DNA from: an uncultured Saprospiraceae bacterium
Lineage (GTDB): Bacteria > Bacteroidota > Bacteroidia > Chitinophagales > Saprospiraceae
Direction: 5' to 3'
Length of the DNA stretch: 64,000 nt
NCBI GenBank assembly: GCA_937950315.1
Contig: CALFDU010000021.1
Coordinates: 1 to 64,000 of the forward strand
Shown here: in pieces, positions 46,830 through 62,161 of the stretch
Layout of the letters: each line of letters starts with the position of its first letter
Position numbering within the stretch: position 1 is the stretch's first letter
Translations under genes and position numbers: made by a program
The notes under the pieces: model-generated
Databases searched by the model: none
Seen by the model: the letters and a program-made list of their open reading frames with translations, nothing else
What the model was told of the DNA's origin: nothing

Positions 46830-49652
46830 ATGAATAAGATTGTATTAATCCTCCTTCTCTCTTTGTTTAGTTTTACGATCTTTTCCCAATCAAACATAAC
46901 TATTAAGGGTTCAGTTTCTGATACTCTTGGTAACCCACTTATCCAAGCTACTGTTCTATTACTGGAAAGACAAGACTCAACAATGGTTGACTATACTAGA
47001 TGTGAGATGGATGGCAGTTTTAAATTTAAAGATGTCAGCAAAGGTGATTATGTAGTGAAATCGACCTATGTGGGTTTTCTTCCACTTATGATTGGAGCCA
47101 ATACCATGTCTGGCGAGGATTTGGACTTAGGTCAAATCAAAATGACTGAGTTGGCCGAAGAATTGATGACTGTAGTTATCAAAGCCGCAAAGGCCCCTAT
47201 TGTAATGAGGGGAGATACCATTGAATATGATGCATCAACTTTCAAAGTCCCGGAAGGATCTACGGTCGAAGATTTACTCCGTCGATTGCCTGGGATTGAA
47301 ATAGAACAAGATGGATCCATATCCGCAGATGGAAAAGATGTTAATAAAGTAACCGTTGATGGTAAATCATTTTTTGGTTCTGATCCCAAAGCTGCTACCA
47401 AAAATTTGCCTGCGGAAGGAATATCAAAGGTTCAAGTTTTCGATACAGAAACATCTGAAGAAGAAGTTACAGGAATTAAATCTGCGGATTCTGACAAAAC
47501 AATGAACCTTGAATTGAAGGAAGAATTTAAAAAAGGTGGATTTGGTAAAGTCATTGCCGCTGCTGGAACACAAAATCGAACAGCCTTAAATGGACCCCGA
47601 GCAGAGTTAAAGGGAAACTTTAATAAGTTTAATGATAAGATACAATTTAGTATAGTCGGGGTAGGAAATAATACCGGACGTAATGGATTGTCATGGGATG
47701 ATTATCGTGATTTTATGGGGTCTCAAGCTTTTAATTTTGGCGATGATCTAGAATTTGGTTTTGGTGGAGGAGGACGTGGTTACTTCACTTTTGGTGGGGG
47801 AGATAGCGGAATTGAATCTAGTATACAATCATTGTTTTTTAATGGTGGAAACTCAGGCGGAATTCCCTTAAACTATAATGCAGGAGCTAGCTTTAACTAT
47901 GAGCATAAAAAAACAAAGTTTAGTTCTGTATATTACTATAACCAGCAAGGACTTGTCAAAGAAACCCAAATGGATCAATCTAGGTTCTATGATGATTTTA
48001 CCTCTGTAGAACAAGGACTTGAAACCAATGACTCAAATTTTCAAGGTCATAGGATGGAGTTATCATTTGAGCAAGAGATTGATACTTTACATTCCTTTAA
48101 AGTTACTGCCAATGGCGCATTTATTGACCAGACTGTAGGACAAGTAGAATCTGCCAATTTGTTTAGAAATAATGTTCTTAATAGCCAATCTTCTTTCGAT
48201 AATCAGTCAGACAAAGAAGGTTATCTAGGTAATGCAACTTTTCTTTTTAGAAAAAAGTTTAAGAAGAAAGGAAGAAGAGCTGGAATTAATTTCTCGTATT
48301 TAAAATCCGAGTTAGATACTGACGAAAACCAAGTATCGGATAGCTATTTTGTAGCAAACGATAGTACTGCAATTTTTAACTATTTGAATGAAGACATGGC
48401 TACCAAGGATTTGTTTAAGGCCAATGCAGTGTATGTAGAACCACTTGGTAAAAAATTCTTTTGGCAGAGTTTCTATAATTATAGTAACAGGCAGGAAACT
48501 GGTGATCGAATTGTCCTTGAGTCAGAAGAATTAGATGGTTTCCTTTCTCGAAATTTTAACAATACAATTTTATTAAATAGAGTAGGTTCATCTTTGAGAT
48601 ACTCTCACGATGGTTATAACTTGACGGCTGGTTTGGCTCACCAAAATTATGACTTGCAAGGGGATTTTGTGTCAGAAAACGCGTTACTTAAAGGTGTTGT
48701 GGACAAGCAGTTCGACAATTGGTTGCCATATTTCAATGTTGATATTTCCCCGCAAAGGAATACTTATTTGTCAGCAGGATATACAAGACAAGCTGTAGAA
48801 CCAAATATTGCTGATTTACAGCCGATTGTTGATACGAGGAATCCATTTTATATACGAGAAGGCAATTTAAATTTGACACCTGAGCTTTCAAATATATATT
48901 CTATAAGCGGTAATCATAATTGGCCTTTAGAAGCAATCAGAGTTTCTTTGAACTTGAGTTATTCAGAATATGATTCGCAATTTTCTACAGAAGAAACTGT
49001 CGATGAAAATTTGGTTACATTTCTAAGACCAATAAATGTTGAAGGGGGAGAAGAAAGAAGTGTTTGGAGTAGTTTTAGTTTTCCTATTATTAAGAACAAA
49101 CTTACTGTGAGAACAAATTTTAGTTACGACTTAGGTAAAAGACCATCTCTTGTTAATAAAGTAGAAAATATTACAACTCGTCAAACTTATAATCCTTCGA
49201 TAAGGGTAAGCTATACGCCGAGTACAGAGTTCTCAATAAACGGAAGTGCAAGATTGCGGATTACAGATACAGAATATGATATTAATGTATCTCAAAATCA
49301 AAGAATTATCAATAACAACTATTCTTTGACCATGAACTCCAAACTATTCGCTAAGATATATAGCAATGCTTCCTTTAGTTATAATGTGAATGTCAATGAA
49401 CGTTTTAATTTTGAAGAAAATGTGCCTTTATTAAATGCATCATTGTACAGGCATTTTCTCCCTGATAATAAATTAGAAGTAAGAGTCTCGGTGTATGATT
49501 TGTTAGGTCGTAGCCAAAATATTTCTCAAAGCACTTTTGGTAACTCAGTATTTTTTTCCACCTCTGATGTGATCGGACGATATTTTATGCTGTCATTGAG
49601 TTATAATATTCGAGGGATGAAGGGTGGAATTGAAAAAAGTAGATGGTGGTAA
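46830..49652 (+). CDS. TonB-receptor-like outer membrane beta-barrel protein
   Basis: The 940-residue protein has a signal peptide ending in FSQS and a carboxypeptidase-regulatory-like beta domain (residues about 22-100). A plug-like region follows, with DTIEYDASTFKVPEGSTVEDLLRRLPG and DGKSFFGSDP, and then a long beta-barrel of the OMP_b-brl type. A Gly-rich loop (FGGGGRGYFTFGGGDSG) sits near residue 315. It is followed after 11 bp by a GLPGLI-family gene, a pairing seen often in Bacteroidota. The transported substrate is not known; energy dependence on TonB is inferred from the plug. Confidence 0.88.
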   Translation: MNKIVLILLLSLFSFTIFSQSNITIKGSVSDTLGNPLIQATVLLLERQDSTMVDYTRCEMDGSFKFKDVSKGDYVVKSTYVGFLPLMIGANTMSGEDLDLGQIKMTELAEELMTVVIKAAKAPIVMRGDTIEYDASTFKVPEGSTVEDLLRRLPGIEIEQDGSISADGKDVNKVTVDGKSFFGSDPKAATKNLPAEGISKVQVFDTETSEEEVTGIKSADSDKTMNLELKEEFKKGGFGKVIAAAGTQNRTALNGPRAELKGNFNKFNDKIQFSIVGVGNNTGRNGLSWDDYRDFMGSQAFNFGDDLEFGFGGGGRGYFTFGGGDSGIESSIQSLFFNGGNSGGIPLNYNAGASFNYEHKKTKFSSVYYYNQQGLVKETQMDQSRFYDDFTSVEQGLETNDSNFQGHRMELSFEQEIDTLHSFKVTANGAFIDQTVGQVESANLFRNNVLNSQSSFDNQSDKEGYLGNATFLFRKKFKKKGRRAGINFSYLKSELDTDENQVSDSYFVANDSTAIFNYLNEDMATKDLFKANAVYVEPLGKKFFWQSFYNYSNRQETGDRIVLESEELDGFLSRNFNNTILLNRVGSSLRYSHDGYNLTAGLAHQNYDLQGDFVSENALLKGVVDKQFDNWLPYFNVDISPQRNTYLSAGYTRQAVEPNIADLQPIVDTRNPFYIREGNLNLTPELSNIYSISGNHNWPLEAIRVSLNLSYSEYDSQFSTEETVDENLVTFLRPINVEGGEERSVWSSFSFPIIKNKLTVRTNFSYDLGKRPSLVNKVENITTRQTYNPSIRVSYTPSTEFSINGSARLRITDTEYDINVSQNQRIINNNYSLTMNSKLFAKIYSNASFSYNVNVNERFNFEENVPLLNASLYRHFLPDNKLEVRVSVYDLLGRSQNISQSTFGNSVFFSTSDVIGRYFMLSLSYNIRGMKGGIEKSRWW

Positions 49653-49663
49653 AATTTTGTAAA

Positions 49664-50407
49664 ATGAAAAAATTTCTAGTAGCAATAATATTTTTAAGTA
49701 TCAGCCTATCAACATTTGCGCAAAGCTTAAATGGTGTAATCGTATACAATCGAAAGGTCAATTACGTGTCGATTATGACTAGGCTTCCGTTTTTGACTTC
49801 GGAAGAAATAGATCGAGTCAAACTCACCTGGGGTAATAATTCTGATAATAAGGGAACTAATTATGTTTATTTTTTTAATGAAGCACAATCTCTTTATACG
49901 CAGAGTGAAGAAGAAAATGAAGGAGGCTATTCCTGGTCTGAAGAAAAGTATGTTTTGCAAAGAGATCATAAAAAGAAGACAGTTAATGACTGGAGGGAGG
50001 TCTTGGGTAAACGTTATTTGGTTGAAGATGATTTGCCTAAGTATAAATGGAAAATATTGAATGAGATTAAGGAGATTGAGGGTTATCTCTGTATGAAAGC
50101 TGAAACCTATGATCCTGTAAAAGATCAAACCATTCATGCTTGGTTTTCAGATGGAATTATATTTTCTGGCGGACCTGAAGGTTTTGCTGGGTTGCCAGGG
50201 ATGATTTTAGAACTAAACATCAATGATGGAGACGTGGTTGTTACCGCAACCGATATAAAATTGACGCCTGATAAAGTTGACATTCCTTTACCTAAAAAGA
50301 TGAAAGGAAAGTCAATAGATATTCAGGGATTTGATAGTATCATAAGTATGTTTATTGCTGAATCGATAGCTGCCGAACGAAACCCTTACTGGAGAATTAG
50401 ATATTAA
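49664..50407 (+). CDS. GLPGLI-family secreted protein
   Basis: I start at the ATG at 49664, which gives the signal peptide MKKFLVAIIFLSISLSTFAQS; seven upstream in-frame codons overlap the end of the barrel gene. The 247-residue protein contains the family motif as FAGLPGMILELN near residue 180. The family name comes from this block. Members sit beside TonB-receptor-like barrels and their function is unknown. The neighbour relation here suggests they work together in uptake or sensing of one compound. Confidence 0.88.
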   Translation: MKKFLVAIIFLSISLSTFAQSLNGVIVYNRKVNYVSIMTRLPFLTSEEIDRVKLTWGNNSDNKGTNYVYFFNEAQSLYTQSEEENEGGYSWSEEKYVLQRDHKKKTVNDWREVLGKRYLVEDDLPKYKWKILNEIKEIEGYLCMKAETYDPVKDQTIHAWFSDGIIFSGGPEGFAGLPGMILELNINDGDVVVTATDIKLTPDKVDIPLPKKMKGKSIDIQGFDSIISMFIAESIAAERNPYWRIRY

Positions 50408-50444
50408 ATATGGAATTAAGAATGGTTTTCAATACCTTAAGGGA

Positions 50445-51422
50445 ATGAAAAATCGTAGAGCTTTTATAAAAACTGCAAGCATTTTTGGTATTGCAATGCC
50501 CTTGGCCTCATGTCACTCAAATTCAAATACCAACAATCAAAAATCGCAGGAAGGTGTTAAGCCAATTATTATATCTACTTGGGAACATGGTTTGGATGCA
50601 AATAAAGTAGGATTCGAAATTTTGAAAAATGGCGGTTCGGCAATCGACGCTGTTGAGAAAGGAGTTGTAGTTGTAGAAAACGATCCCACCAATCAGACTG
50701 TAGGAATTGGCGGATTTCCTGATAGAGATGGTAATGTAACGCTGGATGCATGCATTATGAAAGGTGACGGAGGTTGCGGTTCTGTGGCATTTCTACAAGA
50801 AATAAAAAATCCAATTTCAGTAGCCAGAAAAGTCATGGAAGAAACTCCACATATTATGCTGGTTGGATCTGGAGCAAAGAAATTTGCTTTAGAGCAAGGA
50901 TTCAAAACAGAAAATTTATTGACAGAGCAGACCAAGAAAGACTATCTAGAATGGTTAGAAACGGAGAACTACAGTCCTGAGATTAATATTGAAAATCATG
51001 ATACAATTAGCACATTGGCGCTTGACGCAAATGGTAAAATTGCAGGTGCGTGTACAACAAGTGGAGCAGCTTGGAAAATGCATGGAAGAGTAGGAGATAG
51101 TCCATTGATAGGAGCAGGTTTATTTGTAGATGAAGAAGCTGGAGCTGCAGCTGCTACAGGACTAGGCGAGGCGGTAATCCGGACTGCGGGAAGTGCTATG
51201 GTTGTTGAGGCAATGAGAAATGGGTTAAGTCCTTATGATGCATGTAAAGAAGTGGTAGATAGAATTAGAAAAAAACATGCAACGTTGAAAGATTTGCAAG
51301 TTGGATTTGTTGCATTAGATATGAAAGGGAATTATGGCGCATACAGTATCCATCCTGGTTTTAATTACGCAATTGGAACTATCAATGGTCATACTCTTTT
51401 TGATGCCAAATCAATGTTCTAA
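50445..51422 (+). CDS. Asparaginase-like Ntn hydrolase (N4-(beta-GlcNAc)-L-asparaginase type)
   Basis: The 325-residue product has a twin-arginine-like signal (NRRAFIKTASIFGIAMPLASC) ending in a possible lipobox. The precursor should self-cleave before the catalytic Thr in NHDTISTLALD near residue 185, giving alpha and beta chains. GSAIDAVEKGVVVVENDP and GDSPLIGAGLFVDEEAGAAAATGLGE are family blocks. Relatives split the sugar-asparagine link of N-glycans or cleave isoaspartyl bonds; which one applies is not certain. It lies 37 bp after the GLPGLI gene and may be in its operon. Confidence 0.87.
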   Translation: MKNRRAFIKTASIFGIAMPLASCHSNSNTNNQKSQEGVKPIIISTWEHGLDANKVGFEILKNGGSAIDAVEKGVVVVENDPTNQTVGIGGFPDRDGNVTLDACIMKGDGGCGSVAFLQEIKNPISVARKVMEETPHIMLVGSGAKKFALEQGFKTENLLTEQTKKDYLEWLETENYSPEINIENHDTISTLALDANGKIAGACTTSGAAWKMHGRVGDSPLIGAGLFVDEEAGAAAATGLGEAVIRTAGSAMVVEAMRNGLSPYDACKEVVDRIRKKHATLKDLQVGFVALDMKGNYGAYSIHPGFNYAIGTINGHTLFDAKSMF

Positions 51423-53593: not shown

Positions 53594-54064
53594 ATGGCTA
53601 AGTATCGCTTATTGACAAACCAAGAGTTGGTTGAGATGAAAACAGAATTTATCAACTATCTCGTAGTTAATGGGATAGCCGCTGATGACTGGAAAAAGAT
53701 GTTGGCCAATGAACCTGACAAGGCCAAAGAAATTGTAGATCTTTTTAGTGATGTTGTTTTTGAAAAGATTTTAAGGAAAGTGAACTTTGTACTGCGTCAA
53801 GGGAAAAAGGAAATTGTCGCTTTCCATTGTATGGAGAAAACAATTGAAATGTGCGGACTGGTGGCAGGTCCGGATATTAAAGTGGATTTTACAGATAATG
53901 AAACCATTGCAAAATTAATTGCCAATCCGATCAAAGGATTAGAAACAGTTCATGGTGAAAAAGAATATTCAAAGGTTCGCGAACTTGAAATATTCGAATT
54001 GACTCAACAGGGAGGAATGATTTCAGATGGCAACGTCTTCAATGCCTTGAAATCAATTCTTTGA
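53594..54064 (+). CDS. DUF6495-like conserved protein
   Basis: The 156-residue cytoplasmic protein begins MAKYRLLTNQELVEMKTEFINYLVVNGI. It resembles a Bacteroidota family I recall as DUF6495; the family name is from memory. It has no known motif, signal peptide or membrane helix. The N-terminal half is helical and the second half has beta strands around FVLRQGKKEIVAFHCMEK. It follows the helicase after 30 bp, possibly on the same transcript. It overlaps the convergent TonB receptor gene by 12 bp. Confidence 0.68.
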   Translation: MAKYRLLTNQELVEMKTEFINYLVVNGIAADDWKKMLANEPDKAKEIVDLFSDVVFEKILRKVNFVLRQGKKEIVAFHCMEKTIEMCGLVAGPDIKVDFTDNETIAKLIANPIKGLETVHGEKEYSKVRELEIFELTQQGGMISDGNVFNALKSIL

Positions 54065-56128
54065 TTTGTATTCAAACTTATAACGCACACTTATAAAATA
54101 ACTTCTGCCTCTTCCCACCAATTGATTGTTGATATTTGTGTCTAGAGCATGATTGGCACCGGGGTCAATTTGATTAATATCTGCATACACCACATTCATA
54201 ATATTTCGGACTCCAACATTCAGGTTTATTCTATCATTAAACAAACTTGAAAAGAATGTGACATCAATAAATTGATAACCTTGGGTAATGTTTTGTTTCA
54301 ATTCATCATTTTCAATGAAATATCGAGGAACATCTCCTAGGAGCCTGTGAGTGAATACACCACCAAAATTCATGTTCTTTGGTTCGAATCGAAAGTTAAG
54401 TGTATTATCAATTACTTGATTGAAACTAGGAGATTCTCGTATTTCTGAAATATTATTATACCAATAACTTAATCCAAAGTTGTTGGATAATGAAAATGCT
54501 TTGTACTGAAGATTTACATCTGTTGAAATTCCATGTACAGAGAAATTGTTTAGGTTCAAATATTGAAATTTGAGTTGTTCAAATTCACCTAAAATGATCT
54601 TGTTAGTAATGTTTGTTTTGTAAGCTTTTACAACTCCTGAAAAATTTATTTTTTCAAAGGTAGGTTCATAAGATATACTAAGATTAAAGTCATTGGTCAA
54701 CTCTGGAAGCAATTCCTGATTTCCAATAACAAAGTGATTGACATCAATAAAATTGATATACAATTCCTTTAAGCTTGGACTTCTAAAACCTCTAGAGTAT
54801 CCTCCTCGTAGTCTCCAATCGTCACTTATTTTATGTTGTACTTGGATAGAAGGAGAAAATTGTGAGCCATAAATGCTATGTCGCGTGATTCTTGTTCCTG
54901 CTGAAGCTGTGGTGTTTTTTAGACTATATTTAGCATCTAGAAATATGCCATACTCTAGGCTTTTGACCTTACTCGAGTCTTGTTGACTTAGATCAATAAC
55001 TCTATCTCCAGATACATGCTCCTGATTTATTTGAATTCCGGCTAAAAGACTTAAGTTATTAATTGGACTAAATGATGCACTGGCTTTACCAAAGTATGCT
55101 CGGAATAAGGATTCGTCAAAATTTGTGAAGTCACCATTGAATTCATTGGTTTCAAATTCAAATCGCTCCTGTTGAAGAGTTCGTTGAAAATTATTAACTG
55201 CAATGGTTGTATTAAGACTTACATTGTTTAGAGCTCCTTCGTACACTAGACTATAATCACTTCTGTTGGTGTGATAAAATTCATCAAATGAATAAGGACG
55301 GAAAGTAGGACGTCTTAATTCTCCAAAACTTGATACTTCTTCATCCATGAAAGAATATTTGAAACTTATAGAGTTTATGTCGTCAATAAAATATCGAGTG
55401 TGCGCGAATGCATTTATTCGTTCTTTCGGATTCCATGGATAAACCTTTCTTCTGATGTTAGATTCTTCATTGATAGCCACCGTTTCATAGATTCTCAATG
55501 AATCAGTTTCAAAAGGATTATCTAGCAAGTAACTACCTCCAAAATTGAACATGAAATCATTAATTTTTACTCCGGTATTGATCGAATAATTCTGAACAGT
55601 AGGTTGTTCGAAAACAGAATTGATATCAATAGTTAGAGGACTCAATTGAGATTTCTTACTTATTAAATTGATAACACCACCAGCAGCATTGTTTCCATAA
55701 ATGATGGATTGAGGGCCTTCAATTATTTCTATTTGCTCAATATTAATCATTGATATTTGAGAAAGATCCAATGCACCGTCTTGTCTTCCAATAACCGGGA
55801 CACCATCGATAAGTATTGCAATGTTATCAGATCCGATTCCTCTCATTTTTGCAGAAGTTCCAAGGATAGGGTCGTAGTTGATTCTTATGCTTGAAAGTTG
55901 GGTAAGTACCTGATCTAATTGGGTGAATCCTTTTCTCTCTATTTCTTCTTTCTTTATAACCTTAACTAAATGTACTGAGTTCTTTACTTCTGTCAGATTG
56001 TGTTGAGAAGTAATAACAACATCTTCAATATTGATACTATAAGCGAAAGTGTCAATCTCTGATTGTTGTGCACCCAACTTAATAACTGTAATTAGAATGC
56101 TAATGAATATTATATATATCTGCTTCAC
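54053..56128 (-). CDS. TonB-dependent receptor, probable heme or iron uptake
   Basis: The 691-residue receptor has a signal peptide, a plug with NIAILIDGVPVIGRQDGALDLSQI and EIIEGPQSIIYGNNAAGGVINLISKK, and a 22-strand-type barrel ending in RSYFISVRYKF. The barrel motif GFRSPSLKELY, followed by NQELLPELTNDF, matches the heme/colicin receptor group (HmuR- and BtuB-like). Its start overlaps the AraC regulator gene by 4 bp, and a HmuY-like gene lies on the other side. Heme as substrate is therefore the best guess, though vitamin B12 or a siderophore cannot be ruled out. Confidence 0.88.
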   Translation of the reverse strand: MKQIYIIFISILITVIKLGAQQSEIDTFAYSINIEDVVITSQHNLTEVKNSVHLVKVIKKEEIERKGFTQLDQVLTQLSSIRINYDPILGTSAKMRGIGSDNIAILIDGVPVIGRQDGALDLSQISMINIEQIEIIEGPQSIIYGNNAAGGVINLISKKSQLSPLTIDINSVFEQPTVQNYSINTGVKINDFMFNFGGSYLLDNPFETDSLRIYETVAINEESNIRRKVYPWNPKERINAFAHTRYFIDDINSISFKYSFMDEEVSSFGELRRPTFRPYSFDEFYHTNRSDYSLVYEGALNNVSLNTTIAVNNFQRTLQQERFEFETNEFNGDFTNFDESLFRAYFGKASASFSPINNLSLLAGIQINQEHVSGDRVIDLSQQDSSKVKSLEYGIFLDAKYSLKNTTASAGTRITRHSIYGSQFSPSIQVQHKISDDWRLRGGYSRGFRSPSLKELYINFIDVNHFVIGNQELLPELTNDFNLSISYEPTFEKINFSGVVKAYKTNITNKIILGEFEQLKFQYLNLNNFSVHGISTDVNLQYKAFSLSNNFGLSYWYNNISEIRESPSFNQVIDNTLNFRFEPKNMNFGGVFTHRLLGDVPRYFIENDELKQNITQGYQFIDVTFFSSLFNDRINLNVGVRNIMNVVYADINQIDPGANHALDTNINNQLVGRGRSYFISVRYKFEYKSKN

Positions 56129-57003
56129 TTTGTTTGAATATATTTCTTTGGTGTAATGTCAAATTTGGATTTAAAGGCACTGATGAAATGACTTGGGTTG
56201 TTGTAGCCTAGTTCATAAGCAACCTCTTTAATTTTAAAGTTTCCTGTGTCAAGCATCGCTTTTCCATGATTCATTTTGTGATCCAATAGATACTGAAACA
56301 AAGTTGATCCATAAAGACTTTTAAATCCTTCTTTTAATCTGTGTTCGTTAAGTCCTACTTCAGTGGCCAATGCTGAAGTAATTGGAGGTTCTTTCATGCG
56401 GGCAATTAATATGTCCTTCGCCTTTTTTATTTTCTTGACGCTATCTTCATCTTGTAAATATGGACAAGATGTATTTTCTTCTTTTGCTTGCCTAGAAAAG
56501 TAAATACTTAGAATTTCAAGAGATTTGGCATATCTGAAAATGTCTCCTGTTTTTCCGGTGTCATTTATTTCTAAAATTTGTTTCAATACCAAATTTAGAT
56601 TAGTACTAATATGGTCTTTTTTATAAATCTTTTGATTTACATTTTCACTATTTAAAAATTCTAGCTCATTGCTGCTGTCTAAAAATAGCTGATGTATTTT
56701 TTCTAGCGAACAGAATAAGAAAATGAGTTGTGTGTCTTCTTCAGTTGTAATGGTAGGCTTTAGTATTTCAGTCGGATTATAGAAAAAGCAATTGTTGCCC
56801 GCGGACAAAGGCATGTTGTAAGAACCTCCATAAAAAGCAAAATTCATTGCTCCTTTTACGCAGAAAAAGTATTGAACTACTTTTTCATCAACCTCAATGT
56901 CCAATAGGTTTTTCGACTTTTCATCATATTGAATAAGAACCAAACCATCCCTAAGTAAGTGTTCTCTCCATTTGCTTTTATCGTTATTTTTACAAACTAT
57001 CAA
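56125..57003 (-). CDS. AraC-family transcriptional regulator of the uptake locus
   Basis: The 292-residue protein has an N-terminal cupin-like sensing region and a C-terminal AraC double helix-turn-helix (residues about 195-290), with GLNEHRLKEGFKSLYGSTLFQYL and IKEVAYELGYNNPSHFISAFKSKFDITPKKY. The helix-turn-helix most resembles the PchR group, which senses iron-siderophore or heme. The stop codon overlaps the TonB receptor start by 4 bp. It is likely to activate the receptor and the divergent HmuY-like gene from dyads at 57095-57162. Confidence 0.88.
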   Translation of the reverse strand: MIVCKNNDKSKWREHLLRDGLVLIQYDEKSKNLLDIEVDEKVVQYFFCVKGAMNFAFYGGSYNMPLSAGNNCFFYNPTEILKPTITTEEDTQLIFLFCSLEKIHQLFLDSSNELEFLNSENVNQKIYKKDHISTNLNLVLKQILEINDTGKTGDIFRYAKSLEILSIYFSRQAKEENTSCPYLQDEDSVKKIKKAKDILIARMKEPPITSALATEVGLNEHRLKEGFKSLYGSTLFQYLLDHKMNHGKAMLDTGNFKIKEVAYELGYNNPSHFISAFKSKFDITPKKYIQTK

Positions 57004-57044
57004 AAGAATATAGATTTTGGCTATTTAGATTAAAATGATAAAAG

Positions 57045-57052
57045 TAAAGGTA
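57045..57052 (-). promoter_or_regulatory. Candidate -7 element of AraC regulator operon
   Basis: The minus strand reads TACCTTTA, one base from the TAnnTTTG consensus, about 42 bp upstream of the regulator start codon. Confidence 0.35.
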
Positions 57053-57094
57053 AAACATATGATTTTATGTTGTTTATGCTGATGAAAGTAATTT

Positions 57095-57117
57095 TTATTT
57101 AGAATAAGTCTAAATAA
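57095..57117. promoter_or_regulatory. Perfect 9-bp dyad, probable operator of the heme locus
   Basis: TTATTTAGA (57095-57103) and TCTAAATAA (57109-57117) are exact inverted copies around a 5-base spacer. The site lies mid-way between the divergent regulator and HmuY-like genes. Its form suits a dimeric metal- or iron-responsive repressor, perhaps of Fur or DtxR type; this is inference. Confidence 0.7.
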
Positions 57118-57127
57118 TGTAATTTTC

Positions 57128-57162
57128 AAATACCGTTATTCATTTCTTGTTTAGCGGTATTT
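57128..57162. promoter_or_regulatory. Second perfect dyad between regulator and HmuY-like gene
   Basis: AAATACCG (57128-57135) and CGGTATTT (57155-57162) are exact inverted copies 19 bp apart, ending 18 bp upstream of the -7 element of the HmuY-like gene. This spacing and position fit an AraC-type activator, and no -33 TTG is present at the normal distance. Confidence 0.6.
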
Positions 57163-57180
57163 TTATGAAGAAAGGTATAA

Positions 57181-57188
57181 TACATTTG
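57181..57188 (+). promoter_or_regulatory. -7 promoter element of HmuY-like gene
   Basis: TACATTTG is an exact TAnnTTTG match. Because it overlaps the GTG at 57188, that codon cannot be the start, which supports the ATG at 57212. Confidence 0.6.
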
Positions 57189-57211
57189 TGACAAGAAATA
57201 AAAACACAATT

Positions 57212-58474
57212 ATGAGATTATTGATAATCACCTTTTTTGCATTAATTACAATAAGTACTGTAAGCGCTCAAGAAATTGATCAGATTTCTGTTGGAGCTGG
57301 CTACGGTTTACAGACATTTTATGATGTCGACTCAGGAGAGAAGACAGTTATAGATGGAGATCAATGGGATATCGCTTTTACGGTATTTGGATTTCAAGAT
57401 GCTGGTATATTTATAAATGAGTCTGCATCTTTAATGGGGGAAGAAATAGAATTGTATGACCTTGGCGCTGGAAATTTTTCTACTGCTGTGACAGAAGCTG
57501 ATTTGACAAATAGAATTTATAATAATGATAAGTCTTGGCAAAGTGGTGCCTTTAATGAAGGTAGAGACCCTGCTGACTTTTCAGATTTTGGATGGGGATT
57601 TTATAATCCTGCAACCATGTCAGTGACAGGCGTTAAGATGTTTGCTTTGAAATTAAGAAATGGAAAGATGATCAAGCTTCAGATAGAAGCAATAAATCTA
57701 ACTGAGTATACATTCAAATATGCTGATTTGGATGGATCTAACCAAAAAAGTGTTTCCTTTGATAAATCTGGATATTCGGGAAAACACTTGGCTTACTATT
57801 CTTTTGATTCAGAGGAAATGTTGGATTTAGAGCCAGATGGATGGGACCTTACCTATACAAGATATTCTACATACCTTGAAGCAGGTCCGGATGAAATCAT
57901 AAATTATATTGTTACGGGAATTCTTACTGCTGATGGCGTGCAAGTAGCGCAGGCTGATGGGATTGATCCTGTAAGTGTATCTGAATCAGATTACACATCT
58001 GATTATAGTTCTTCAACCGATGTTATTGGGTTTGACTGGAAGGACATTGATATTGCAACCCTACAATGGTCTTTAGTTTTAGATAGAGTATATTTTATAA
58101 AGACCGATGAAAATAAAACTTATAAGTTGCATTTTATTGACTTCGAAGGATCATCAACAGGTATAACTACATTTGAAAAATCTGAGGTGATGACTACATC
58201 AACTTATGATGTTTTCGAGTCAAATACCACTATCGGCAATGCATATCCTAATCCAACTCATGGAACTTTCTCTTTTGATTATGAGACAGAAAAGGCAGGT
58301 AAAATAGTGGTAAGTATCTATCAATTAGACGGAAAGAAATTGTATTCTCAAGTGATGGATACGCATGTTGGTCGGAATGTTATTAGCATCGATGATTTTA
58401 CTGTTGGCGGAAACTATTTTTTAGTTCTTGATAATGGAGAACGAGTATATAGTCAGCAATTGATCATCAAGTAA
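57212..58474 (+). CDS. Double HmuY-like heme-binding protein with T9SS type A sorting tail
   Basis: I start at the ATG at 57212, which gives a signal peptide (MRLLIITFFALITISTVSAQ); the GTG eight codons upstream lies inside the promoter. The 420-residue protein has two HmuY-like domains. The first (about 24-185) has DQWDIAFTVFGF and VKMFALKLRNGKMIKLQI. The second (about 190-335) has LAYYSFDSEE, DGWDLTYTRYSTYL and DRVYFIKTDENKTYKLHFIDF. A T9SS type A tail follows from about residue 343 (AYPNPTHGTFSF ... SQQLIIK). HmuY proteins bind heme and pass it to a TonB receptor. Known HmuY is a lipoprotein; this one is predicted to be T9SS cargo. Confidence 0.85.
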   Translation: MRLLIITFFALITISTVSAQEIDQISVGAGYGLQTFYDVDSGEKTVIDGDQWDIAFTVFGFQDAGIFINESASLMGEEIELYDLGAGNFSTAVTEADLTNRIYNNDKSWQSGAFNEGRDPADFSDFGWGFYNPATMSVTGVKMFALKLRNGKMIKLQIEAINLTEYTFKYADLDGSNQKSVSFDKSGYSGKHLAYYSFDSEEMLDLEPDGWDLTYTRYSTYLEAGPDEIINYIVTGILTADGVQVAQADGIDPVSVSESDYTSDYSSSTDVIGFDWKDIDIATLQWSLVLDRVYFIKTDENKTYKLHFIDFEGSSTGITTFEKSEVMTTSTYDVFESNTTIGNAYPNPTHGTFSFDYETEKAGKIVVSIYQLDGKKLYSQVMDTHVGRNVISIDDFTVGGNYFLVLDNGERVYSQQLIIK

Positions 58475-59035
58475 TTACAATAAATCAATCATAGTATCAA
58501 AATCATGATTGAAACTAATACCATCATTCGTTTGCGCTGTGAAGTTGATAGTAAGTGGACCATCAGTTACTGACATACTTTCTACAAGAGAAGTAGGGAA
58601 GCCTACCGATACTTCACAGAACGTACGCGTTGAACAAGTGTTTGTTATTTCAATAGATGAAAACTGATTGAAGTCGCGCAAATTCGTTCCTGCGTTGAAA
58701 GTATTGGCGCCTATTGTAACATCTTTGCTGAAACTAATACCCAAGGTAGATTCATCTAGAGAATTCAATACACTACTGAAGCAATCTTGACCATAAACTT
58801 CTCCTATAGGATTGAAATCTGTATAAACTAAATCTGTATCTGGGAAATAGTTAAGAATAAATCCTGTTCTTATGACTTCATTATTCACAGCCTCTGGATT
58901 AACATCGTAATCAAGGAGAATAACTGTATTGATCATCCCATTTAATGCTGAATCTGATTCGCCGCAACAGCTTGAAATGATGACAGCTGATAGATAGGCT
59001 AGGAATAGAATAGAAAGTTTAGATGCAATCTTCAT
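58475..59035 (-). CDS. Lipoprotein of unknown function
   Basis: The 186-residue product has a lipoprotein signal ending in VIISSCCGESD, with two adjacent cysteines at the lipobox. The mature part is beta-rich with four further cysteines that could form disulfides. I do not recognise a family. Its stop codon abuts that of the HmuY-like gene, tail to tail, with no gap. A minus-strand -7 element (TACTTTTG) lies 10 bp upstream of its start. Confidence 0.65.
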   Translation of the reverse strand: MKIASKLSILFLAYLSAVIISSCCGESDSALNGMINTVILLDYDVNPEAVNNEVIRTGFILNYFPDTDLVYTDFNPIGEVYGQDCFSSVLNSLDESTLGISFSKDVTIGANTFNAGTNLRDFNQFSSIEITNTCSTRTFCEVSVGFPTSLVESMSVTDGPLTINFTAQTNDGISFNHDFDTMIDLL

Positions 59036-60454: not shown

Positions 60455-62161
60455 ATGAGAACCAATCTTATCATCTTCTACCTTATTTTGTTATCCACTT
60501 TCCTTTTTGGGCAGGATTTTACTCGACAAGATGGAAATTTTAGCATAGTTAATTCGTTTGGAGGTGGGACTCCATTTGGCGGTGGTACAGTGAGCTTTGC
60601 TGATTTTAATGAAGATGGCTTAGATGATTTGACCTTTGGCACTAGAACTGGATTGCCAATACATTTTTATGAGAACACTGGTGATGGATTTGAATTGGTT
60701 GATCCACCTTTTGTAGATAACTTTTCAGATCACAGACAAATTTTATGGATCGACTATGATGATGATGGCGATCGAGATATTTTTGTAGCTGCGCTGGATG
60801 GACCCAATAAGCTTTATGAAAATGATGGCAGTATGTCATTTACAGATGTTTCTATTTTGAGAGGATTGTCTACACAAAATGTTTTGACGGAAGGGGGAAA
60901 CTTTGGAGATTTAAACAAAGATGGATTCCTTGATTTGTATATAACCAATTATGATGATGATGGAATCACATTGAATGGTCATGAAAATGAAATGTACAGA
61001 TGGAACCCGCAATCAGCTTCCTATGAAGATGTCACACTTTCATCTTCAACTGGTAATGGTGTAAGAACTAGTTTCTGTACTGCTTTTTTTGACTTCGATA
61101 TGGACAATGATTTGGATATGTATGTCATTAATGATTTTCATGCATTTGAAAATTCATTGTATATGAATATTGGTAATTTTCAATTCATTGATGTTTCTGT
61201 TCCTTCCATGTCTAATATCGCTATTGAATCCATGAATGCCGGAATCTCTGATTACGATAATGATGGAGATTTTGATATTTATATTACCAATGTTGAAGAT
61301 GCAGCCTTGTTGAGAAACAATGGTGACAATACCTTTACAGATGTAGCAGCACCTGCAGGAGTCTTAGCTCATGAGTGGTCTTGGACGGGTAATTTTTTCG
61401 ATTTTGATAATGATAGAGATGATGATCTTTATGTTTTGTCTCAAGTAAGTACTGAGCCTAATTATTTTTACGTAAATGTTAATGGAATATTTTCCGAGCC
61501 ATTGGCCAACAATGGTGGAATCACTGGTCAGGATAATCTTGAAGCGATTGCCAATGCTATAGGAGATGTAAACAATGACGGTAAATTGGATATTGCTATC
61601 TGCTCAAGAAATGATAATAATTACAGACTTTATGTAAATAATGAATTATCGGAAAACAACTTCATAAAGCTAAACCTAAAAGGTACTAGTTCTAATAATG
61701 CAGCGTATGGGGCATTGGTTGAATGTTGGATTAATGGCGCAAAAACCATCCAGCACAAACACTCTGCAGTATCATTTCACTGTCAGAACTCTGATTACTT
61801 ACACTTTGGTATAGAGCAAGCGACCTCTGTTGATTCGTTGGTTATAAAATGGCCTTTTGCCAATAATGTAGATGTGGTTTATTCCGCAGACATATTGGTG
61901 AATGGGATGAATGAAATCACAGAAGGTTCAGGCTTAACAAATTCATATTCACTCGAGATCTGCAAGCATACACACAATCTTGTGATCGATCCTATTCCTA
62001 GCCAGAATTATGGAGCTGTTTTGGATCTAATGGGAAACACGACAATATTAAGTGGCCATGACGTGTTGTTTCAGTCAGAAACATCAATCACATTAGATGC
62101 AGGATTTGAAGTAAAACTAGGTGCTGAGTTGTTAGCAGAAATAGAAGTTTGTGGAAATTAA
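60455..62161 (+). CDS. Secreted VCBS/FG-GAP-repeat protein with ASPIC/UnbV domain (CRTAC1-like)
   Basis: The 568-residue protein has a signal peptide ending in LFGQ and a beta-propeller of about six FG-GAP/VCBS repeats. Each repeat carries a calcium-type Asp loop (DYDDDGDRD, DLNKDGFLD, DFDMDNDLD, DYDNDGDFD, DFDNDRDDD, DVNNDGKLD). An ASPIC/UnbV domain follows at about residues 400-490. The C-terminus (about 510-568) resembles the '3-coathanger stack' module (ILSGHDVLFQSETSITLDAGFEVKLGA), found in secreted Bacteroidota proteins. It probably acts outside the cell in calcium-dependent adhesion; the ligand is unknown. Confidence 0.88.
   Translation: MRTNLIIFYLILLSTFLFGQDFTRQDGNFSIVNSFGGGTPFGGGTVSFADFNEDGLDDLTFGTRTGLPIHFYENTGDGFELVDPPFVDNFSDHRQILWIDYDDDGDRDIFVAALDGPNKLYENDGSMSFTDVSILRGLSTQNVLTEGGNFGDLNKDGFLDLYITNYDDDGITLNGHENEMYRWNPQSASYEDVTLSSSTGNGVRTSFCTAFFDFDMDNDLDMYVINDFHAFENSLYMNIGNFQFIDVSVPSMSNIAIESMNAGISDYDNDGDFDIYITNVEDAALLRNNGDNTFTDVAAPAGVLAHEWSWTGNFFDFDNDRDDDLYVLSQVSTEPNYFYVNVNGIFSEPLANNGGITGQDNLEAIANAIGDVNNDGKLDIAICSRNDNNYRLYVNNELSENNFIKLNLKGTSSNNAAYGALVECWINGAKTIQHKHSAVSFHCQNSDYLHFGIEQATSVDSLVIKWPFANNVDVVYSADILVNGMNEITEGSGLTNSYSLEICKHTHNLVIDPIPSQNYGAVLDLMGNTTILSGHDVLFQSETSITLDAGFEVKLGAELLAEIEVCGN

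Follow-up and report, generated by a model that had tools for sequence, protein, structure and literature searches.

Classical HmuY proteins are lipoproteins that have been studied in human-associated anaerobes. In Porphyromonas gingivalis, the iron-responsive HmuY/HmuR system (hmuYRSTUV; PMC10434189) comprises a single-domain HmuY lipoprotein, which places two His residues on the heme iron and has no type IX secretion system (T9SS) sorting tail, and HmuR, a TonB heme receptor with a His and an NPDL motif (PMC3832793). Flavobacterium psychrophilum pairs an HmuY-family protein, HfpY, with a TonB receptor, HfpR; the accessible part of the paper describes the pair as controlled by iron scarcity, with HfpY binding heme 1:1 and HfpR conferring heme use, and places them in an hfpR-1813-hfpY operon on one strand, with no AraC partner or T9SS tail mentioned there (PMC9331221). 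In Flavobacterium columnare, HmuY (C6N29_01035) carries a Pfam HmuY domain and a TIGR04183 tail in one protein and is reported to be T9SS-secreted; no AraC-divergent unit is described in the accessible part of that paper (PMC9618737). Here, we analyzed 64,000 nucleotides of DNA (the window) from an uncultured Saprospiraceae bacterium (GCA_937950315.1, contig CALFDU010000021.1, positions 1 to 64,000), in which genes for a TonB-dependent receptor and an AraC-type regulator lie divergent to a gene for a tandem HmuY protein with a T9SS tail (hmuY-T9SS). We consider it likely that they form a Fur-controlled heme-scavenging unit, in which the tandem HmuY protein is exported via the T9SS and heme is imported by the TonB receptor.

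The locus thus resembles that of F. psychrophilum in combining an HmuY-family protein with a TonB receptor, and that of F. columnare in its HmuY-T9SS protein. A preliminary description, made from the letters of the DNA, had proposed this heme-capture locus, and our analysis supports its reading with two corrections. One is the PchR-like label of the regulator, discussed below. The other concerns novelty: HmuY joined to a T9SS tail is already known from F. columnare, whose protein combines the same two domain types and is reported to be T9SS-secreted. As described, the receptor and AraC-type genes share 4 bp (56125-56128) and the hmuY-T9SS gene diverges from them; no hmuS or hmuTUV genes appeared in the open reading frames listed at the locus. 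Its features are as follows.

54053-56128, minus strand: TonB-dependent outer-membrane receptor of the heme-receptor type, 691 amino acids, GTG start (Pfam plug 4.3e-22, barrel 4.5e-23)
54701-54787, minus strand: receptor loop FRSPSLKELYINFIDVNHFVIGNQELLPE with the His465 codon at 54734-54736, a FRAP-His-NPxL type signature (conservation in linked receptors)
56125-57003, minus strand: AraC-type transcription regulator, 292 amino acids, TTG start (HTH_18 3.5e-18, HTH_AraC 1.2e-12), adjoining hmuY-T9SS across the genus
57097-57115, no strand: predicted Fur box ATTTAGAATAAGTCTAAAT, within a 23-bp palindrome (57095-57117) in the shared divergent promoter
57181-57188, plus strand: Bacteroidota -7-type promoter element TACATTTG (TAnnTTTG) before hmuY, a consensus match from a pattern scan only
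57212-58474, plus strand: tandem-HmuY protein, predicted to be secreted and hemophore-like, 420 amino acids, ATG start (Pfam HmuY and Por_Secre_tail, TIGR04183, AlphaFold2)
57212-57268, plus strand: signal peptide region MRLLIITFFALITISTVSA, then Q (hydrophobic N-terminus; helix 2-19 in the model)
57269-57739, plus strand: HmuY-like domain 1, residues 20-176 (profile match to domain 2)
57740-58201, plus strand: HmuY-like domain 2, residues 177-330 (best Pfam HmuY stretch, 192-321; fold of the domain alone)
58244-58471, plus strand: T9SS type A C-terminal sorting domain, residues 345-420 (TIGR04183 8.1e-10; fold)

Profile searches and structure prediction both identified the two HmuY-like domains and the T9SS tail that had been read from the 57212-58474 product. 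The Pfam HmuY family (PF14064) scored 38.4 bits against a curated cut-off of 27 (1.7e-9) and matched two stretches at a relaxed threshold; in one homologue (L039), domain 1 is the best HmuY stretch. At the C-terminus, Por_Secre_tail (30.6 bits) exceeded its curated cut-off and the T9SS type A tail TIGR04183 reached 38.5 bits (NCBIfam cut-off, 23). Among 73 homologues, 67 matched the HmuY profile and 69 the tail. The tandem repeat is real, because profiles built from each half of the body align with each other (E 2.1e-9 across 118 columns), and the family profile retrieved the HmuY structure 3h8t (E 1.5e-7). The AlphaFold2 model of the 420-amino-acid protein, built with the 73 homologues, had a predicted local distance difference test score of 93. 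Its top eight matches in the PDB were all HmuY family (Z 11.1-13.9), including PinO (13.9), the HmuY-heme complex (3h8t, 13.2), Bvu (13.2) and BF2707 (13.1), so the protein shares the fold of P. gingivalis HmuY; the T9SS tails of mirolase and NucA followed on the C-terminus (Z 9.6-9.8). Domain 2 folded alone gave the same eight HmuY-family matches (Z 7.0-8.5; next best, 3.3). HmuY aligned to residues 19-327 of the full model with a higher Z than to domain 2 alone, and the strand at 179-184 of the full model was missing from the isolated domain, suggesting that the modeled repeats may exchange strands. Foldseek had placed viral envelope proteins on top for the full model, at a TM of about 0.15 and a root-mean-square deviation near 29 Å; we rejected these as beta-sandwich noise, since re-alignment ranked only HmuY proteins, then T9SS tails, on top. 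The genome also encodes the T9SS translocon SprA/Sov, the only T9SS component searched (TIGR04189, 491.6 bits, on a contig fragment).

Heme receptors are marked, according to published work (PMC3832793), by an extracellular loop that carries FRAP and NPNL motifs and a His; BfpR of F. psychrophilum has this loop signature too (PMC9331221). The window receptor reads FRSP...H465...GNQEL, that is, FRAP/NPxL-type boxes with a His between them, a sequence signature that agrees with the heme-type receptor originally proposed. His465 was unvarying in all 64 receptors linked to hmuY genes, and a regular-expression screen, whose outcome depends on the pattern chosen, found no FRSP...H...GNxxL loop in the other 21 barrel receptors of the genome. 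The best NCBIfam models were of the BtuB, hemin/hemoglobin and CirA types, all far under their curated cut-offs (heme-receptor model TIGR01785, 104.9 bits against 316.9). Because every curated receptor model falls short, the protein was not filed as a named equivalog.

We then placed the locus among its relatives. In 61 nearby genomes, 54 matched at E <= 0.001, many by the tail only, and 27 matched strongly in the body; in a phylum-wide survey, 49 of 392 genomes had a match. Scanning named genomes with a profile from a closer subset (the whole-family alignment was too diverse) yielded 80 loci, mostly from Saprospiraceae and also from other Chitinophagales, Bacteroidales, Cryomorphaceae and a Kapabacterium. 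In the 21 type A loci, from genera including Lewinella, Neolewinella and Phaeodactylibacter, hmuT/hmuU/hmuV and/or hemS come after hmuY-T9SS, and most of these loci end with the receptor; one of them matched HemS (1.3e-77), FecCD (3.3e-92), Peripla_BP_2 and ABC in Pfam. Type B (25 loci) has hmuY-T9SS then the receptor, and type C (17 loci) adds a second HmuY without a T9SS tail, often with a lipobox. The window type, type D, comprised six further loci: the AraC gene was divergent from hmuY-T9SS in 6/6 and the receptor was present in 5/6, so that the full three-gene set recurs in five. Nine loci fit none of these types, some of them at contig ends. HemS was found in seven of the 61 relatives, and all seven have the tandem HmuY protein (27/61 overall; hypergeometric P 0.002, only a guide because relatives are not independent); in five of the seven, the two genes are no more than about 10 kb apart on a single contig.

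Several further arrangements were seen at these loci. HemS or HmuT adjoins related genes in L173, L187 and L193. Outside Saprospiraceae, type C loci (L121-L141) often place one receptor between a T9SS-form HmuY and a second HmuY that resembles a lipoprotein; in three of them (L130, L132, L135) the first copy is also a lipoprotein. A small DUF6686 protein (PF20391) is encoded just before the receptor gene in L072, L075, L077, L080, L095, L103 and L108, and is possibly an uncharacterized part of heme utilization. In the 5' part of L065, a member of the genus, the AraC gene is still divergent from hmuY-T9SS.

The preliminary description had taken the locus as one regulated unit, and a predicted Fur box in the shared divergent promoter, about 95 bp from the start codons of both araC and hmuY, agrees with this. 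The box shares 17 of 19 bases with the Fur box of Riemerella anatipestifer, ATTTAGAATTATTCTAAAT, which has gel-shift support that includes the hmuR promoter (PMC5609570). With at most two mismatches, the motif occurs in 31 of 81 hmuY-T9SS promoters (shuffles give 0.8), distributed by locus type as A 19/21, D 6/7, B 3/25 and C 2/17. The window site is the only one in the 4.3-Mb genome (G000) with no mismatch in the arms, and three sites have one mismatch. Of these near-perfect boxes, C80:25921 (L198) lies immediately upstream of feoAB, and C69:15461 (L197) precedes a DUF4856 gene that is followed by a gene for an imelysin-like lipoprotein; judging from these predicted sites, both operons are probably members of the Fur regulon of this genome. 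The third, on C120 (L199), has no evident iron gene and was attributed to chance. The genome-wide box count alone is not significant, because the count of a control pattern was similar. Fur-family genes were found in the genome. The regulator itself matched only generic AraC DNA-binding domains, with no PchR- or YbtA-specific match in Pfam or NCBIfam, and its N-terminal domain received no assignment, so the PchR-like label lacks support. A scan for sigma-70 promoters gave counts at chance level.

Taken together, we propose the following course of events. Under low iron, Fur would leave the single operator between the transcripts, and both directions would be expressed. The tandem-HmuY protein would cross the inner membrane via its signal peptide and the outer membrane via the T9SS, to be released or fixed at the surface, where it would bind external heme (or protoporphyrin) and pass it to the TonB receptor for import. 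The AraC-type regulator, whose gene overlaps that of the receptor, probably adds activation that depends on substrate or status.

Heme as the substrate, which the preliminary description had drawn from HmuY and receptor motifs, is favored by the heme operons of relatives and by the receptor His. Several observations weigh against the proposed unit. Across the 73 homologues, none of the plausible positions for a heme-iron ligand holds a conserved His or Met. Searches of the window's genome, which is 95.65% complete, yielded no HemS, CobN-type HmuS or true FecCD permease, which leaves the inner-membrane step unexplained, and HemS was found in 0/6 genomes of the genus. L065 has no Fur box, and its receptor does not adjoin the AraC gene. 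In F. columnare, a strain deleted for the T9SS-secreted HmuY is reported to have grown without impairment in the iron-limited conditions that were used (PMC9618737). Conservation falls instead on Trp, Tyr, Lys and Arg residues (W52, W128, Y131, K155, R217, Y218, Y232, W276 and K277); alignment column 136 holds His in 30/73, Met in 6/73 and Met in the window protein. The His/His, His/Met or Met/Met pairs that hold the heme iron in HmuY proteins are not universal in the family. The missing ligand is compatible with heme, because Bf-2, an HmuY without His/Met at the ligand positions, and HusA both bind heme and protoporphyrin (PMC12106395). The sole FecCD match was rejected as a heme permease, being an ABC-3-type metal permease with a C-terminal MntR-like part that adjoins a Fur-family gene. 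Ferrochelatase and feoAB are present. In its most specific form, our proposal is tentative, and somewhat doubtful: a T9SS-exported tandem hemophore with interlocked repeats would bind heme or porphyrin without a conserved axial His/Met and feed the receptor, in a genus without the searched importers or HemS. If true, captured heme would take a new route, for example periplasmic iron stripping followed by entry through FeoAB.

Alternatively, the HmuY protein might bind, and the receptor import, another tetrapyrrole or iron compound, such as free protoporphyrin, a cobalamin-like corrinoid or a ferric siderophore. The unconserved iron ligand, the dual binding by Bf-2 (PMC12106395), the BtuB-like model that ranks best for the receptor by a small margin, and the lack of heme-degrading HemS or CobN in the genome searches all agree with this; however, close homologues are linked to hemS, a heme-specific gene, and both the Fur-type operator and the FRAP-His-NPxL type loop favor heme, making another ligand unlikely. 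The absence of HemS and of the known heme importers searched would suit a protein that sequesters heme as a surface store, sensor ligand or detoxifying coat, with no delivery to the receptor. Proteins with T9SS type A tails are often fixed at the cell surface. The lack of a growth effect in F. columnare, within the conditions reported in the accessible text, points the same way (PMC9618737), but the pairing with a TonB receptor is kept in five of six genus loci and most other loci, and the operator is of the low-iron type, so that we regard sequestration alone as the least probable of these explanations. The palindrome, in turn, could be the operator of the local AraC protein, responding to substrate instead of iron, as its sole exact copy in the genome lies between araC and hmuY. 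The local AraC does not explain the box, because type A operons of the hmuTUV/hemS kind carry it (the 19 of 21 above) with no adjoining AraC gene; the motif also precedes feoAB and the DUF4856 operon in the same genome and fits the gel-shift-tested Riemerella box, and this explanation is accordingly very unlikely. The Fur-controlled heme-scavenging unit therefore remains the reading we prefer.

Other genes in the window were also noted. Beside hmuY-T9SS, a convergent gene (58475-59035, minus strand) encodes a 186-amino-acid lipoprotein with no Pfam match; it is kept in this position in L062 and L063, and the product and its counterparts in these same-genus loci end in a shared MIDLL motif. At 46830-51422 (plus strand), an OMP_b-brl_3 receptor-like protein, a GLPGLI/PNGase_F-II_N-like protein and, by eye, a glycosylasparaginase-like open reading frame (50445-51422) make up a possible glycopeptide-use cluster. 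An FG-GAP/ASPIC-UnbV repeat protein with a signal-peptide-like N-terminus is encoded at 60455-62161 (plus strand).

Finally, we compared the locus with the operons described to date. The P. endodontalis hmu operon includes a separate T9SS-tailed protein (PMC11208336). The P. gingivalis operon carries a CobN-like HmuS, whereas the window has the divergent AraC layout and its genome no CobN. Gram-negative HemRSTUV/HmuRSTUV/PhuSTUV operons share HemS and a FecCD-type ABC importer with the homologous Saprospiraceae operons; the window's genome, in contrast, is without both, and a T9SS hemophore-like protein is added. Our literature search returned nothing on the Saprospiraceae form, no paper joining Saprospiraceae with heme and hemophore, and no description of a tandem T9SS-tailed HmuY with hemS/hmuTUV or of the AraC-divergent layout. 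The tandem T9SS-tailed HmuY is widespread in environmental Saprospiraceae, other Chitinophagales, Bacteroidales and further groups, and tied to hemS/hmuTUV and the Fur box, a pattern suggesting that secreted heme scavenging is common among free-living bacteria. The pairs of T9SS-form and lipoprotein-form HmuY around one receptor make a ready system for asking what benefit secretion brings compared with anchoring as a surface lipoprotein. Each part of the system is thus of a known kind, and what seems new is a tandem, T9SS-tailed HmuY tied to hemS/hmuTUV, together with the AraC-divergent layout.

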